Assembly (NCBI GenBank): GCA_020847765.1
Contig: JADLBJ010000129.1
Location: 1 to 52,574 of the forward strand
Source of the DNA: Dehalococcoidia bacterium
Lineage (GTDB): Bacteria; Chloroflexota; Dehalococcoidia; Tepidiformales; Tepidiformaceae
Length of the DNA: 52,574 nt
Direction of reading: 5' to 3'
In this document: positions 3,642 through 10,886 of the stretch, in pieces
Numbering within the stretch: position 1 is the stretch's first letter
How the letters are laid out: each line of letters begins with the position of its first letter
Translations under genes and position numbers: made by a program
Notes under the pieces: model-generated
The model's database searches: none
What the model was told of the DNA's origin: nothing
What the model saw: the letters and a program-made list of their open reading frames with translations, nothing else

Positions 3642-5387
3642 GTGGCCATGGGTGAGCGCGTGGTGCCGCTGCTGGACGACCTAACGAGCTGGGACACAGG
3701 GGGGCACCCGGCCTACAACCTTTGGGGCACCGGCAACGTCGAAGAGGTGCTGCCCGGGATCACGCGCCCCCTCTCCGCCGACGTCATCTCCACCTACATG
3801 GAGATCTACGCCCGCCGGCTCGTGAGCGAGGCGGGCCTCGGCGACCAGGTCGTCGTCGCCACCCTCCCCGAGGCGAACATCTTCGGCTTCTTCGGCGGCC
3901 GCTGGGCAGTCAACATCGCCTGGCTCGGCGCCTACGTCGGCTCCTACCAGCCCGAGGAGAGCTCCGACATGCTCGGCCAGTTCATGCGCGGGGGACGGAC
4001 CGCCTCCGGCATCTCGGAGAACACCCGCCGCGCTCTGCGCACGCGGGGGAAGATCGAGCGACTCTGGGCGACGGCCCTCGCCCGTACGCCCCAGCGCGCC
4101 GCTGTCGCCCACCGCGCCCGCCTCGCTGCCCTGCGTGCCGCCCTCCGCCGCGAAAGCGACGCCCGCCTCCTCGAACGAGTTGACCGCACGATCGCGCTCA
4201 CCGGCGGCCTCTTCGTGGACCACGCCTATGTCTCTATTGGCGGCGCCGAACAGCTGGCGCCCCTGTCGTCGCTCCTCGACCGCACCTTCCCGGGCCACCC
4301 GCCCGAGTGGGGAACGGTCCTTACCAGCGCTTTGCGCGACCTGACGAGCGCCGCGCCGGTGGCCGCCATCTGGAAGCTCTCGCGCGCCGCCCGCAAGTCC
4401 GCCGCGGTCGCGAAGGCTATCGAGCACGAACCCGTCGACGTCCTGAGGGAACGGCTGGAGAGCCCGCCCGACGCCGCCTGGCACCGCTTCGCCGCCGCCT
4501 TCGCCGAATTCGACGAGTCGCTCGGTTTTCGCGGCCAGCGCGAAGTCGACCCCTCCGTGCCCGACTGGGGCGAAGACCCCTCCTTCGTCCTCTCCGCCCT
4601 GCGCGCGACGATCTCGCTGCCGGCGACAAAGGACCCGGTTCGCCAGGAAGAGCGCGCGGCACGCGAGCGCGAACGGCTCGAAGCGCGCATCGAGCGTCGC
4701 CTCTCCGAGGAGGATGCAAAGCGCTTCCGCGTCCTGCTCGACGACGCCCAGCGCTACGTCCGCGGCCGTGAGCGCACGAAGGCGACCTGGGCCGAGGCCT
4801 CGCGCGCCTTTCGTCCGCCGTTGCGAGAGCTTGGCCGCCGCCTGGCCGAGCGGGACCTCATCGCCGCGGAAGAAGACGTCTTCTTCCTCCGCCTGGCCGA
4901 GCTGCGCCAAGCCGTGGCCGGCGCCCTGGACGGTGCCACCGCGAAGGAGCGGGTGCGCATCCGCCGCGAGGAGTACGAGCGCCTCCATGCGCTCGAGCTG
5001 CCAGTCACCTTCGAGCTGCCGCTTACCCTGGAGCACACCGCCGCCGTGACCCCCGCCGGTGCTACCCTGACCGGAATGGGCGTGAGTGCGGGCGTCGCCA
5101 CCGGCCGCGCCCGTATCGTCATGAACGCGGAGGCGGGTGACGAGGCGCTGATAGAACCCGGCGAGATCCTCGTCGCCCCGTACACCGACGCCCCCTGGAC
5201 CCCGCTCTTCTGGCCGGCGGCGGGCGTCGTCGTCGAAAGGGGCGGCATGCTCTCTCACGCGTCGACGGTCGCACGGGAGTTCGGCATCCCTGCCGTTGTC
5301 GCCGTCCAGGGTGCCACCACGCTCATCCCTCCGGGCGCTCTCGTCACCGTCGACGGCAACACCGGTACGGTCACCATCCAGGCTTGA
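3642..5387 (+). CDS. PEP-utilizing-enzyme swivel-domain protein, rifampin-phosphotransferase-like, lacking ATP-grasp domain
   Basis: 581 residues. The C-terminal ~90 residues form a phosphohistidine swiveling domain with the catalytic His at about 539 in GGMLSHASTVARE. The helical middle contains GFRGQREVDPSVPDWGEDP, close to the substrate-binding/hinge part of rifampin phosphotransferases. The N-terminal ATP-grasp domain that would phosphorylate the His is absent, so it either acts with a separate ATP-binding subunit (as phenylphosphate synthase does) or has a different role. GTG start at 3642 with GGAGG 6 nt upstream; an ATG two codons on is also possible. A paralog lies at 25615-27291. A terminator follows the gene. 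Confidence 0.8.
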   Translation: MAMGERVVPLLDDLTSWDTGGHPAYNLWGTGNVEEVLPGITRPLSADVISTYMEIYARRLVSEAGLGDQVVVATLPEANIFGFFGGRWAVNIAWLGAYVGSYQPEESSDMLGQFMRGGRTASGISENTRRALRTRGKIERLWATALARTPQRAAVAHRARLAALRAALRRESDARLLERVDRTIALTGGLFVDHAYVSIGGAEQLAPLSSLLDRTFPGHPPEWGTVLTSALRDLTSAAPVAAIWKLSRAARKSAAVAKAIEHEPVDVLRERLESPPDAAWHRFAAAFAEFDESLGFRGQREVDPSVPDWGEDPSFVLSALRATISLPATKDPVRQEERAARERERLEARIERRLSEEDAKRFRVLLDDAQRYVRGRERTKATWAEASRAFRPPLRELGRRLAERDLIAAEEDVFFLRLAELRQAVAGALDGATAKERVRIRREEYERLHALELPVTFELPLTLEHTAAVTPAGATLTGMGVSAGVATGRARIVMNAEAGDEALIEPGEILVAPYTDAPWTPLFWPAAGVVVERGGMLSHASTVAREFGIPAVVAVQGATTLIPPGALVTVDGNTGTVTIQA

Positions 5388-6089: not shown

Positions 6090-6692
6090 ATGCCCATCCG
6101 TCACGTTGTCTTCGTGAAGTTCCTTGCCAACGCCGACCCGGCGGCAATCGAGCGGTTCATCGCCGAGGTCGACCGCCTGCCGTCGCTCAACACCGAGGTC
6201 CGCAACTGGGTGTCGGGCAGGTCGCCAGAGCCACGGTTCCACAACGGCGACTTCGACTGGGGCCTCTCCTGCGATCTGGACGACTGGGACGCCATGGACC
6301 GCTATATGTGGCACGAAGCCCACCTGCGGACGTCGCCCTTCGTGCCGGACGCAGTGGACTACCTGCTCTCGTTCGACTTCGAGCACCAGTTTGCCGGCCT
6401 CGCCTCACAGCAGGAGCGAACGGCCAGCCCCGAGCCTGTCGCGGCCCCCCCGGACGCAGCGCCACGGGTCCCTTCGTTGAGGGGAAGGCGACCCACGGAG
6501 GCAAGGCAGATCCTGGCTCGCTGCGGACTCACGATGGATGAGGACGTCCGTCCCATTCCGGGGTCCGTATGGGCGCCCGGCAGAGTCGTGGCCGTCGAAC
6601 CGGCGGTCGGGACGCCGTTGCCCCGCGGGACTTCCGTTCGCGTGACCGTGACCGGTGACTGGTGGATGCGCCCGGACCTCGGCCGACCCTAG
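6090..6692 (+). CDS. Dabb-domain protein fused to a C-terminal PASTA domain
   Basis: 200 residues. Residues 1-105 look like a stress-responsive A/B-barrel (Dabb) ferredoxin-like domain: it opens MPIRHVVFVKF, has a WDAMDRYMWHEAH segment and a closing LLSFDFE strand. After an Ala/Pro linker (about 108-128), residues 129-192 form one PASTA repeat: VPSLRGRRPTEARQIL, a central W, VVAVEPAVGTPLPRGTSV and a final VRVTVTG strand. No signal peptide or membrane segment is present, which is odd because PASTA repeats normally sit outside the cell on kinases and PBPs. ATG start with CCAGGAGGA upstream. Function unknown. Confidence 0.7.
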   Translation: MPIRHVVFVKFLANADPAAIERFIAEVDRLPSLNTEVRNWVSGRSPEPRFHNGDFDWGLSCDLDDWDAMDRYMWHEAHLRTSPFVPDAVDYLLSFDFEHQFAGLASQQERTASPEPVAAPPDAAPRVPSLRGRRPTEARQILARCGLTMDEDVRPIPGSVWAPGRVVAVEPAVGTPLPRGTSVRVTVTGDWWMRPDLGRP

Positions 6693-6883: not shown

Positions 6884-7741
6884 ATGTGCCGAATGTGCGA
6901 CAGCCTGGGGGGTACGGCGGAACAGCCGTGGTACAAAAACCCGAAGAACTTCAGCAACCGCATGTACAAGCTGCGGGAGCCGGGGAAGGGGCCGCAGATG
7001 GCGGCCGGTGGCAATGCCGAGCCCGACGCCGGCGACCAGCGCGCGTCGCCCTTCGCGCAGGCGGTGGAGGCGAAAGCCAACGGCGACGCGGACACGTTCA
7101 ACAAGATCATCAGCGACATGAACGCGCGCGCCAGCCTGCGCCCCGGCTGCCAGGTGGTGCCGCTCCACGAAGTCCTGGACGTGCTGGACCTGGGCATGCC
7201 CGTCGCGGCGATGCAGTGCATCTGCCGCAAGGAGACGCGCGCCTGCGAGGAATGCTCCCTCAAAGAGTACACGGGCCTTGGCCTCGGCACGGGCATGCTG
7301 AAGTGGGAGCGCTGGCCCGAGCGCTACCGGGGCAAGGTCGAATTCCTCAGCTCCAAGCAGGCGAAGGAGTTCGTCGAGTACTGGGACAAGAAGGGCTTCA
7401 TGCACATGCTGATGCAAGAGGGCGGCGACTTCATCGGTGGCATGTGCAACTGCGACTATCCTGATTGCCTGCCGATCCGCCAGCGCATCGACTACGGCCT
7501 GACAGCGCAACTCCTCAAGAGTGAATACGTCTGCTTCGTCGATTGGGAGAAATGCAACGGCTGCGGGGACTGCCTCGGCCGCTGCGACTTCAACGCGCTC
7601 AAATACGAAGCGACGATGGAGAAGGCACACATCGACCAGTTCCAGTGCTTCGGGTGCGGCCTGTGCGAAACAGCCTGTCCGCGGAACGCCATCGAATACC
7701 GAGACCGAAAGAAGATCTCTGGCCTGGCCAGGGTCTGGTAG
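6884..7741 (+). CDS. Multi-cysteine 2x[4Fe-4S] ferredoxin-type protein
   Basis: 285 residues from the ATG at 6884 (CGGAGGG upstream); in-frame sequence further upstream is not coding-like. The C-terminal third holds two classical motifs, C224-x2-C227-x2-C230-x3-C234 and C255-x2-C258-x2-C261-x3-C265-P. The N-terminal part carries C2-x2-C5, then C112-x-C114-x6-C121-x2-C124, and C188-x-C190-x4-C195, enough for one or two extra metal sites. This layout resembles uncharacterised 4Fe-4S proteins of anaerobes; the partner is unknown. First gene of a coupled operon, 24 nt before a second ferredoxin. Confidence 0.8.
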   Translation: MCRMCDSLGGTAEQPWYKNPKNFSNRMYKLREPGKGPQMAAGGNAEPDAGDQRASPFAQAVEAKANGDADTFNKIISDMNARASLRPGCQVVPLHEVLDVLDLGMPVAAMQCICRKETRACEECSLKEYTGLGLGTGMLKWERWPERYRGKVEFLSSKQAKEFVEYWDKKGFMHMLMQEGGDFIGGMCNCDYPDCLPIRQRIDYGLTAQLLKSEYVCFVDWEKCNGCGDCLGRCDFNALKYEATMEKAHIDQFQCFGCGLCETACPRNAIEYRDRKKISGLARVW

Positions 7742-7765
7742 CAGAAGAAGGTGGGGTAGCGGGTA

Positions 7766-8041
7766 ATGACGCAATGCTATGTCGCGCCGATCATCGAGAT
7801 CGACCGCGAACGGTGCACAACGCCGTTCGCCTGCAAGAAGTGCCTGCAAATCTGTCCGACAGCAGTTTTTGGAGTGCGCGAGACACGCCAGGTGCGTCTC
7901 GAGGAGACGGATAAGTTTGCGCCCGGGTCCTTCCGCCTGCGGGTGGCCTACCGGGACAAGTGCAGCGGCTGCAACCGCTGCGTCGACGTCTGTCCCGAGA
8001 GCGCCCTCACGGTTCGCATGCCAGAGGAGGTGCTCGAGTGA
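7766..8041 (+). CDS. Small two-cluster ferredoxin-like protein
   Basis: 91 residues. The second motif C-x2-C-x2-C-x3-CP (CSGCNRCVDVCP) is a standard [4Fe-4S] site. The first is variant: C17 followed after five residues by CKKCLQICP, so its first interval is longer than usual. Probably a soluble electron carrier for the operon. The stop TGA overlaps the GTG start of the next gene by 4 nt, so translation is likely coupled. Confidence 0.8.
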   Translation: MTQCYVAPIIEIDRERCTTPFACKKCLQICPTAVFGVRETRQVRLEETDKFAPGSFRLRVAYRDKCSGCNRCVDVCPESALTVRMPEEVLE

Positions 8042-8667
8042 CCGGCTCGCTGCATTCGGTCGTGAAGGAGCGCGAACGCGTCGTCTTCCCCAAGGACTGG
8101 ACCTTCGACCTGGCCGAGGAGATGGTCGAGGCCATCGGCGAGGAGTTCTCTCCTTCGGCTGCGGTCGAGGAGCTGGCGCGCCGTGTCGCCGGGAAGCCCC
8201 ACGCCGAGGGGGTCGCGACGGCCGAGGCATACTTCGAAGACTACGGCCGTCGCTGGATGGGACGGACACTGGAGCTCGGCGAGCAATACCGCGACCGCAC
8301 CTACGAGGTGCTGCTGCAGGCTGCCGAGACAACGGGCGGCGACCTTGCCTTCCCCCACGTTCCCGAGCGCTTCGTCGAGATCGCCTATCTGAGCACGCAG
8401 CCGCTCTATTCACTCCCGATCGTCGAGAACACGCGGCACCGCTTCACCTTCAAGATGGTGTTCTGCGACACCTTCAAGGCGCTCGAGGACCAGTGCGGGC
8501 CGGAGATGGCGGCGACGCTGCCCTGCCGAAAGGCCTGCCTGGCTGCCGTCGGCCGCGCCTTCCGGGACAAGGGGTTCGATGTCGAAGTCGTCCAGGACTC
8601 CTCGCTGGCAACCGATGAGTTCTGCCAGTTCAGAACGGAGCGACGAGCGGCGGCGAACGGTGCATGA
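8038..8667 (+). CDS. Uncharacterised protein, weakly ATC-hydrolase-like
   Basis: 209 residues from a GTG overlapping the ferredoxin stop; GAGGAGG lies 8 nt upstream. No family is certain. The central helices, the five Cys (143, 153, 163, 167, 196) and the C-terminal DEFCQFR segment are reminiscent of the L-2-amino-thiazoline-4-carboxylic acid hydrolase-like family, whose members often sit beside ferredoxins and have a Cys near the C-terminus. That is a weak resemblance only. No signal peptide or membrane segment. Its 3' end overlaps the next gene by 8 nt. Confidence 0.65.
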   Translation: MTGSLHSVVKERERVVFPKDWTFDLAEEMVEAIGEEFSPSAAVEELARRVAGKPHAEGVATAEAYFEDYGRRWMGRTLELGEQYRDRTYEVLLQAAETTGGDLAFPHVPERFVEIAYLSTQPLYSLPIVENTRHRFTFKMVFCDTFKALEDQCGPEMAATLPCRKACLAAVGRAFRDKGFDVEVVQDSSLATDEFCQFRTERRAAANGA

Positions 8668-8908
8668 CGGCCACCGCCACGGCAGCTGCGGCGACTGCGT
8701 GAGCTTCGTCATGCCGTTCGCGACGGCAACGCGCATCGCGGCCTGGGGCTACTGCGGCCGGCAGTCGTCGGCACCCGCGCCGCACCTGCTGGCGACCCTG
8801 GAGCAGGCCGCCCTCGCCGGCGACCGTTCGGCGGTGCGCAAGAACACCGCGGGCCTCTTCAAGCCCGAGGAAGACGACTGTTGCGACCTCTACCAGGAGC
8901 GGCGCTAG
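8660..8908 (+). CDS. Small Cys-rich protein, possible Fe-S carrier
   Basis: 82 residues from a GTG at 8660. Cysteines are C10-x2-C13, C32 (in WGYCGRQ) and C74-C75 near the end; the start is His-rich. The C-x2-C, then aromatic-C, then C spacing recalls the small HiPIP-like subunits of benzylsuccinate synthases, but the sequence is not recognisably homologous. It overlaps the preceding gene by 8 nt, and its TAG shares a base with the GTG of the PHP gene, so it is firmly inside the operon. Function unknown. Confidence 0.65.
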   Translation: MHDGHRHGSCGDCVSFVMPFATATRIAAWGYCGRQSSAPAPHLLATLEQAALAGDRSAVRKNTAGLFKPEEDDCCDLYQERR

Positions 8909-9651
8909 TGGAAGCACCGTCGCCGCCTCTCGCCTTTCGCGTCGATCTCCACTGCCACACCGGCTGGGGTTCCGGCGACAGCCATACGGACCCGAACGTA
9001 CTCGTCGCTCAGGCGAAGGCATTTGGGCTGGACGGTATCTGTATCACCGAACATAACCAGCTATGGGACCAGCGGAAGGTCGAACAGCTCTCGGACAAGC
9101 ACGGTTTCCTCGTGATCGGCGGGATCGAAGTCGACACGGACGTCGGACATGTGCTCGTCTATGGGCTGCGCGCGCCGCGGCGATTCATCCGCCTGCCGAC
9201 GATCGAAGAGCTGAGGCGGATGGTGGACGAAGTCGGTGGCGCTATGGTCGTTGCACACCCATTTCGCAAGCGGCAAAAGCCCCCGACCGCTGAGTTCTGC
9301 TCCGGTGTCGGCCTCGAGTTCGTGGAGCGCGCGCTGGAGCTCCCTTTCTTCGACCTCGTCGATGGCGTCGAGGTGCAGAACGGCATCGCCGGGCCTCTCG
9401 AACGGGCGTTCGCGGGCGTCGTCGCCGGCGAGCGCTGCCTGCCGACCACAGGCGGAAGCGACACCCACCGTCACCCCGAAGTGGGCACGACATTCACCGT
9501 CTTCCCGGGAGGGATCCGGAACGAACAGGACCTGATCGACGCGCTGAAGGCGGGCGAGGTGCGGGGTGCTGACTGGGATGCGGAAGGCATCCCCGACCGG
9601 CGCCACGCGTCCATCCTGCCCAGGGATTACACCGGAATAGCGCCAGGGTGA
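8908..9651 (+). CDS. PHP-domain metal-dependent phosphoesterase
   Basis: 247 residues from GTG 8908, with AGGAG 9 nt upstream. PHP metal-binding motifs appear in order: DLHCHTGWGSGD (H15, H17), TEHN, VIGGIEVDT, VVAHPFR and the late GGSDTHRH. Family members hydrolyse phosphoesters such as histidinol phosphate or short nucleotides with a trinuclear metal centre; the substrate here cannot be deduced. It is translationally linked to the Fe-S genes before it, which is an unusual pairing. The AlbA_2-like gene follows after 23 nt. Confidence 0.85.
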   Translation: MEAPSPPLAFRVDLHCHTGWGSGDSHTDPNVLVAQAKAFGLDGICITEHNQLWDQRKVEQLSDKHGFLVIGGIEVDTDVGHVLVYGLRAPRRFIRLPTIEELRRMVDEVGGAMVVAHPFRKRQKPPTAEFCSGVGLEFVERALELPFFDLVDGVEVQNGIAGPLERAFAGVVAGERCLPTTGGSDTHRHPEVGTTFTVFPGGIRNEQDLIDALKAGEVRGADWDAEGIPDRRHASILPRDYTGIAPG

Positions 9652-9674
9652 AGCACTCTGGGAAGGATGCGGCG

Positions 9675-10886
9675 ATGACTGGAACCCACGACAATTCCCT
9701 TTCGAAACCATCCGCAGAACTGACGGCCGCCGCCCTCGAGGCGCTCGTCGGAACCGTGCCGGAACCGCAGCGTTATGCCCTGCTCGCGGCCTGGTCGCGG
9801 GAACGGGCGGCTGCCGAGGCTGCGGCCCTCGCCAACACGGCGGGCGGCCTGCTCCTTGTCGGCGTGGAGGTTGACACCGGCGGCGCCGTCAAAGGGTTCA
9901 CCGACGGCGGCACACAGATGGCGAACGAGATCGGACTGCTCGCGGGAGACCTGGGGCCGGTGGGCAGGCACCTGCTCGCCGCTGCCATCCTCGAAGTGGG
10001 CGGGAAGTCCGTGGGCGTGATCCGGGTCGCCGAAGCACCGGCGCCCCCCGTCATGGTCGAGACGGACGGAGGTGTCTACCGGCGAACCGCGGCGGGTTGT
10101 GTCCGCGTGACCACCCGCGCCGAGCTCGACGCACTCACCGGCAAGGACCGGGCGTCGCGGGAGCGGGCCGAGAAGAACCTGACCGCGATGGTCAGCCGGA
10201 ACGAGCTCGGCAACTACGCCTATGTGACGCTCGCGGTGACGCTAGCGCCGCGAGTGCCGGACGCGGGCCCGTACGCCTGGGCGGCAGCGAACCGGCCTGC
10301 GCTGGTGGCCCACGAGCATGGCCTGGCAGGGCGCTGGCAGTTCGCCTCCGAGAACGTAAGCGCAAGCGCGGGCGAAATCCTCGTGGCGGGATCCGACGAG
10401 GTCACCGGCTTCCTCCGCATCTCGCGCAATGGCACGGTTGCCGCGGGCGAGCATCTGCGCCGGCCACCGGGCGCAGCCTTCCTCCCGGCGGCGGACATGG
10501 CTTCGCGTCTGCGCGACATGGTCGAGCTGGCGACGCTCCCCCTCCGGGCAGTCGGCGGCGGGCAGGTGGTTGCGGCCGTGTCGCTCGAGGGAATGCGCGA
10601 CTTGCGGCTCACCCTCGCCGACGGCCTCAGCCGCCCGGCCAGCAGGGACACGCTCACTTCAATCGTGACGGAACGTCATCTTGCCGACGATGCCGAGCTC
10701 GCCCGCCTCAGCGACGACCTCGTGGCCGCCGCCGGTGTCGTCTTCGCCGCGAACCTCGGCGCGGGAACGGGCGCGCACGCAGGCGACCCCGTGGACCACA
10801 CCGGCGACCCGCGCAGCTGGCACGGCCTGACGAGGCGCACAGAACGGCGCCTCTCCGGTGCCCGCGGGCACGGGAGCGCAGGCTAA
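9675..10886 (+). CDS. AlbA_2-like (Schlafen-type divergent) domain protein
   Basis: 403 residues from ATG 9675 (GGAAGG 8 nt upstream). Residues 40-130 carry the AlbA_2 pattern: AAALANTAGGLLLVGVEVD then GGAVKGF, later VIRVAEAPAPPVMV and GGVYRRTAAG. In other bacteria this domain occurs in transcriptional regulators and in defence-associated proteins. The remaining ~270 residues are not recognised; I see no ATPase or nuclease motif. Last gene of the operon beginning at 6884. It converges on rplL across about 250 nt. Confidence 0.65.
   Translation: MTGTHDNSLSKPSAELTAAALEALVGTVPEPQRYALLAAWSRERAAAEAAALANTAGGLLLVGVEVDTGGAVKGFTDGGTQMANEIGLLAGDLGPVGRHLLAAAILEVGGKSVGVIRVAEAPAPPVMVETDGGVYRRTAAGCVRVTTRAELDALTGKDRASRERAEKNLTAMVSRNELGNYAYVTLAVTLAPRVPDAGPYAWAAANRPALVAHEHGLAGRWQFASENVSASAGEILVAGSDEVTGFLRISRNGTVAAGEHLRRPPGAAFLPAADMASRLRDMVELATLPLRAVGGGQVVAAVSLEGMRDLRLTLADGLSRPASRDTLTSIVTERHLADDAELARLSDDLVAAAGVVFAANLGAGTGAHAGDPVDHTGDPRSWHGLTRRTERRLSGARGHGSAG

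Follow-up and report, generated by a model that had tools for sequence, protein, structure and literature searches.

What is the function of a run of overlapping genes for cysteine-rich proteins in a bacterium of the Dehalococcoidia? The genes lie at positions 6884–8908 of the window, that is the whole stretch of DNA analysed, which is 52,574 nt in length. A sequence-only reading had taken them as a set of four whose products are made together, probably as a complex, and could name no described system with this set.

The operon and its cysteine-rich proteins

The open reading frames are intact, with overlaps of 4 nt between P2 and P3 and of 8 nt between P3 and P4, as had been read. Because homologues keep both the frames and the gene order, P1 to P4 are real genes and not chance open reading frames. 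The operon extends past 8908, since the coupled gene of a PHP-domain protein overlaps the stop of P4; its GTG start sits inside that stop (TAGTG), giving an overlap of one base. The features are as follows.

6884–7741, + strand: P1, Fe–S protein of 285 aa, ATG start with a Shine–Dalgarno-like GGAGGG upstream; N-terminal CxxC (C2, C5), middle IsrA-type Cys-rich domain and C-terminal 2x[4Fe-4S] ferredoxin domain
7139–7534, + strand: P1 middle domain, residues 86–217, with C112-x-C114 and C188-x-C190-x4-C195, assigned from IsrA-like homology and Cys conservation
7535–7696, + strand: P1 ferredoxin domain, residues 218–271, two canonical [4Fe-4S] motifs, Pfam Fer4/Fer4_7 above cut-off
7766–8041, + strand: P2, ferredoxin of 91 aa, ATG start; first motif C-x5-C-x2-C-x3-C, second motif canonical
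8038–8667, + strand: P3, 209 aa, GTG start, five Cys including C143, C163, C167 and C196; predicted V4R/Bet3/H-NOX-type fold
8660–8908, + strand: P4, Cys-rich accessory protein of 82 aa, GTG start, five Cys; motifs CxxC and WG[YF]C plus one late Cys
8908–9651, + strand: PHP gene, 247 aa, GTG start, metal-dependent phosphoesterase family, Pfam PHP and PHP_C above cut-off
9648–10886, + strand: possible sixth gene, Schlafen AlbA_2 domain protein, overlapping the PHP stop

The AlbA_2 reading frame follows the PHP gene only in close relatives of the window. The sizes and cysteine contents of P3 and P4 agree with those first given for them, and so does the account of P1 as a protein with two [4Fe-4S] motifs and extra groups of cysteines. 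The canonical CxxCxxCxxxC motifs of P1 are located at C224–C234 and C255–C265, and there are 11 further cysteines, at positions 2, 5, 89, 112, 114, 121, 124, 188, 190, 195 and 217. The ferredoxin cysteines are invariant in the 65 P1 proteins compared, as are C112, C114, C188, C190 and C195, while C2 and C5 are kept in 60/65. C131 is present in 62/65. The window P1 has glycine at this position, with C121 and C124 nearby; it is one of three close relatives that lack C131, all of which carry C124 and two of which also carry C121. This pattern points to a possible exchange of one ligand for another. The structural model of P1 is fair (pLDDT 85.8), and its Foldseek matches in the PDB centre on, and are essentially confined to, the ferredoxin domain.

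By their cluster motifs and Pfam Fer4 scores both P2 and the C-terminal domain of P1 classify as [4Fe-4S] ferredoxins. The unusual cluster interval noted earlier in P2 is C17-x5-C23-x2-C26-x3-C30. It is kept in nearly all of ~80 relatives and, on the alignment, is a hallmark of the P2 family.

Three other regions of the window were annotated. Positions 1–2999 hold the end of a molybdopterin oxidoreductase together with an Fe–S subunit and a chaperone of the nitrate reductase delta type, forming a Nar-like respiratory operon. At 3642–5387 there is a 581-aa protein in which a PEP-utiliser mobile domain is the sole recognised part, the remainder matching no Pfam family, and 6090–6692 encodes an unusual combination, a stress-responsive Dabb barrel joined to a PASTA domain.

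Conservation and neighbourhood of the triad

A scan with P1-specific peptides, taking one genome per species, gave 80 loci, or 81 with the window. The complete triad of P1, P2 and P3 is present at 75 of these 81. Of the remaining six, five are truncated where the contig ends; in the sixth (L023) P2–P3–P4 sit on a separate contig (L215) of the genome. The bacterial hosts comprise Dehalococcoidia and other Chloroflexota, Desulfosporosinus and other Clostridia, delta-proteobacterial MAGs, Nitrospinota, Hydrogenedentota, Poribacteria and one Pseudomonadales MAG, and the archaeal hosts Bathyarchaeota, Methanolliviera and others. When the search was started from P3 (61 relatives), P1 and P2 adjoined every P3 locus found. 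In a class-level genome sample P3 is present in all 28 genomes that have a triad-type P1 (Fisher p = 5e-35); four more genomes have P3 with no P1 detected, two of them at contig edges and two with degenerate-looking fragments (L211 and L212, from one genus) that were left out of use. The distance matrices of P1 and P3 are correlated (r = 0.91, reached by 0/2000 permutations), a value to which the shared ancestry of the species contributes. In one locus (L074) P2 and P3 are naturally fused as a single continuous reading frame. Tandem duplications within the operon were seen as P2–P3–P1–P2–P3 in L027 and as P1–P1–P2–P3 in L065.

Occurrence is patchy: one search detected P3 in 2/400 genomes sampled from the phylum, and another in 32/289 genomes of the class. 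A plasmid search with P1 returned partial, weak matches only, and relatives were not found in a viral collection. The locus is a genuine redox operon with a wide but thin distribution.

P4 was found in only about a dozen loci, every one in a triad-bearing genome, so that the proposal of a four-gene system is rejected; the coupled redox operon stands, and its widely conserved unit is P1–P2–P3, with P4 and the PHP protein as accessories. The expectation that the products are made together fares well in so far as the triad proteins probably act together; that they form a complex is a suggestion strengthened by the P2–P3 fusion. Paralogues of P1 also occur alone, which for P1 tells in part against the sequence-only reading. 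In the P4 family the CxxC, the WG[YF]C and the late Cys are invariant, and P4 gave no match in Pfam or the PDB. At 23 loci a PHP gene lies beside the triad, on its downstream side in most lineages but on its upstream side in Desulfosporosinus. An interpretation of the PHP protein as a nucleotide (pAp) phosphatase was set aside, PHP being absent beside most copies.

At 13 loci the gene before P1 encodes an NfnB/GltD-like flavoprotein. SDR genes are likewise found near 13 loci, and genes for a MinD/CooC-like ATPase near nine. Genes for enzymes of acyl-CoA metabolism recur (SDR, enoyl-CoA hydratase, MaoC, AbfD-like, acyl-CoA dehydrogenase, CaiB and HGD-D, several assigned by eye), those for MaoC, AbfD-like protein and enoyl-CoA hydratase being located close to the copies in Desulfosporosinus and to a small number of others. 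Such neighbours are commonest in this one genus and there are none within the window operon; because 18 loci come from one genus, the acyl-CoA context amounts to only a few independent observations. A DUF3786 protein and a familyless protein of 100–120 aa flank the triad in one group of Chloroflexota (L065 7046–7360, L092 8332–8937), and a 195-aa family with no Pfam match comes after SDR in 10 loci (e.g. L029 13146–13733).

P1, IsrA and the predicted fold of P3

IsrA is a putative isoprene reductase of Acetobacterium wieringae, with a proposed Cys6 site to which two CxC motifs belong (C180/C182 and C254/C256). Next come a ferredoxin, a DPYD-II and a FAD/NAD(P)H domain, and HypA/HypB are often encoded nearby (PMC10134865). 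In our comparison authentic IsrA was represented by an IsrA-like protein that shares this architecture, from a Subdoligranulum record (L248); HypB- and HypA-like genes adjoin it, as described for the IsrA family. The P1 profile matches this protein with 52 bits over the Cys domain CxCR..C..CNCxxxxC. The middle domain without the ferredoxin part still scores 36.6 bits, whereas the highest score among 2000 shuffles was 9.5. The six family cysteines of P1, all present in the 62 proteins that have C131, line up with those of the IsrA-like protein, and the two CxC pairs are spaced by 76 in P1 and by 74 in both published IsrA and L248. Judged from these alignments, the middle domain of P1 is homologous to the proposed active-site domain of IsrA. 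A further A. noterae hit (H1) was rejected as an IsrA relative, being a MinD-like Fe–S ATPase.

The remainder of IsrA has a counterpart too. The NfnB-like neighbour of P1 in the 13 loci matches residues 382–870 of the IsrA-like protein of L248 with 34–36% identity; P1 and this neighbour match the two halves of IsrA and so correspond to IsrA split over two chains. The fused FAD/NAD(P)H half (PF14691 + PF07992), which belongs to the ~900 aa alignment of IsrA clade 9, is absent from the 285-aa P1. In the window the first chain, P1, is in the operon and the flavin half is not adjacent to it; homologues of the second chain are encoded elsewhere in the genome, one of them adjoining genes that, judged by eye from their sequences, resemble those for CaiB, MaoC and 3-hydroxyacyl-CoA dehydrogenase. 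HypA/HypB genes were absent near P1 in the loci examined. HypA was not found in the source genome, which is 79% complete, and a nickel route via HypA is unsupported there.

The same Cys-rich domain occurs in very many other proteins, often alone or with a P2-like ferredoxin, and therefore homology alone leaves the reaction of P1 unfixed. A stand-alone P1 paralogue (MCxFCHQHGEG...) with no P2 or P3 was seen in single-contig Dehalococcoidia genomes (L146, L147, L148). A 365-aa P1 relative is encoded with a MinD/CooC-like Fe–S ATPase, in divergent orientation to the triad (L160 7853–9886, L063 7664–9697).

P3 is modelled with confidence by AlphaFold (pLDDT 91.6). Its best Foldseek matches are Bet3/TRAPPC3, H-NOX and the phenol sensor MopR (E ~1e-3, probability up to 1.0, TM ~0.3–0.6), and the listed PDB structural matches belong to the V4R/H-NOX/Bet3 superfamily; matches from a PDB sequence search were discarded as chance. 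C143, C163 and C196 are invariant, as is E114, and C167 is present in 65/67. These four cysteines, in the C-terminal half, would probably hold a [4Fe-4S] cluster or a zinc ion. Zinc is held by three Cys and one Glu in V4R phenol sensors (PMC10715001), and the invariance of E114 and three cysteines, with the fourth nearly so, makes a structural zinc site that takes no part in electron transfer a realistic possibility, if somewhat on the doubtful side. The near-obligate co-occurrence with ferredoxins and the one fusion favour a redox role, yet they are compatible with zinc, which would in turn be compatible with any of the functions considered below.

The window P3 matches nothing in Pfam, ATC_hydrolase (PF14196) included. 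Within the family, weak matches to ATC_hydrolase were obtained for 14/67 members (best E 4e-5) and matches to DUF6125 for 10; in the alignment with the ATC_hydrolase profile the first and last conserved cysteines are paired, with a weak profile–profile score. These similarities could mean that P3 is a distant enzyme of this kind, a thiazoline or C–N hydrolase, with the Fe–S proteins merely as redox partners. Given the weak score, the unmatched window P3 and the ferredoxins, which would be superfluous for a hydrolase, this is very improbable.

Possible function and comparison with known systems

Because P1 carries the unusual Cys-rich domain of IsrA, the triad probably acts as a reductase that is so far uncharacterised, or as the module that delivers electrons to one. 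Our leading proposal, held tentatively, is that P1–P2–P3 form an Fe–S oxidoreductase complex related to IsrA, with a V4R-like subunit for binding the substrate. Electrons would enter from ferredoxin or, in lineages that encode it beside P1, from the NfnB-like FAD/NAD(P)H protein, which is likely to be the point of entry for NAD(P)H. They would travel by way of P1's ferredoxin domain and of P2 to a non-canonical multi-Cys cluster in the middle domain of P1, the counterpart of the Cys6 site at which IsrA is proposed to reduce its substrate. P3 may bind a small organic substrate or acyl-CoA next to this cluster, and the likely reaction would be reduction of an unsaturated substrate, probably CoA-bound or hydrophobic, with P4 and the PHP protein assisting. 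Besides the aligned cysteines and the split-IsrA arrangement, this proposal is favoured by the co-inheritance and fusion within the triad, the predicted fold of P3 and the recurrence of acyl-CoA enzymes. It is weakened by the putative status of IsrA itself, the breadth of the domain family with its many solitary members, the glycine at position 131, the lack of HypA/HypB in the regions examined and of HypA in the incomplete genome, Foldseek E-values for P3 of only ~1e-3, and an acyl-CoA context drawn mostly from Desulfosporosinus. The wider idea, that there is a class of hydrogenating multi-subunit Fe–S (perhaps Ni–Fe–S) reductases in bacteria and archaea, built from an IsrA-type cluster protein and a V4R-fold substrate subunit with a Cys4 cluster, is doubtful.

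The chief rival to a reductase is a module with no substrate of its own, which would feed low-potential electrons to a separate enzyme, e.g. a radical dehydratase, or build its metal centre. Two ferredoxin-like subunits and the NfnB-like neighbour would suit such a role, as would the MinD/CooC-like ATPases near nine loci, the AbfD-like or HGD-D enzymes near some and the P1 relatives that stand alone. Yet no single client enzyme goes with the triad across lineages, and the ligand-binding-type fold of P3 would be unusual in a pure carrier, making this account rather unlikely. Taking the resemblance of P3 to H-NOX and MopR at face value, the triad might instead be a sensor of redox state or ligand, in which P3 acts like a V4R/H-NOX sensor domain and the Fe–S proteins signal. 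There are sigma-54 activators near the Desulfosporosinus copies and the AlbA_2 protein downstream in the window family, but these regulators are lineage-specific, P1–P4 contain no output domain, and ~15 conserved cysteines in P1 alone exceed the need of a sensor; a sensor is thus improbable.

Anaerobes appear to have many proteins with Cys-rich domains of the IsrA type, for which the biological hydrogenation of unactivated double bonds, perhaps involving nickel, is so far a putative chemistry. Being compact and co-inherited, and having the same domain, a separate small carrier and a probable ligand-binding subunit, the triad would offer a tractable system in which to study what the domain does, and it is present in culturable Desulfosporosinus. 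The operon also lends a functional context to the nameless families of P3, P4 and the P1 domain.

P2 has the overall design of two-cluster bacterial ferredoxins such as HgcB and FdxN, and differs from them in its conserved first motif. The recurrent partner of P1 belongs with NAD(P)H:acceptor flavoproteins of the NfnB/GltD/DPYD type, although it is absent from the window operon. P3 shares with the V4R/H-NOX/Bet3 superfamily (MopR sensor domain, TRAPPC3) the predicted fold and a C-x-F motif at the last strand, and is set apart by its C-x19-C-x3-C-x28-C pattern, the genetic tie to ferredoxins and the lack of an effector domain. Some members also resemble ATC_hydrolase and DUF6125 (PF19620) weakly in the Cys-bearing C-terminal part, but the N-terminal half is different and P3 has one Cys more. 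The closest relationship is that to IsrA and its clade 9 homologues, in which a ferredoxin motif likewise follows a Cys-rich domain that has two CxC motifs and is homologous to that of P1. P1 differs in being a stand-alone chain with an N-terminal CxxC, a two-cluster ferredoxin tail and no fused flavin part, and the triad in having P2 and P3 as extra subunits and no HypA/HypB; the window P1 is in addition one short of the six cysteines. In the open-access papers searched, the gene combination was not found described as a set, nor did those on DUF3786, DUF169, DUF6125 or ATC hydrolase contain anything about this operon. Because of the homology between the P1 middle domain and the Cys6 domain of IsrA, the set has a described relative: P1–P2–P3 is a variant of the IsrA-type Fe–S systems.
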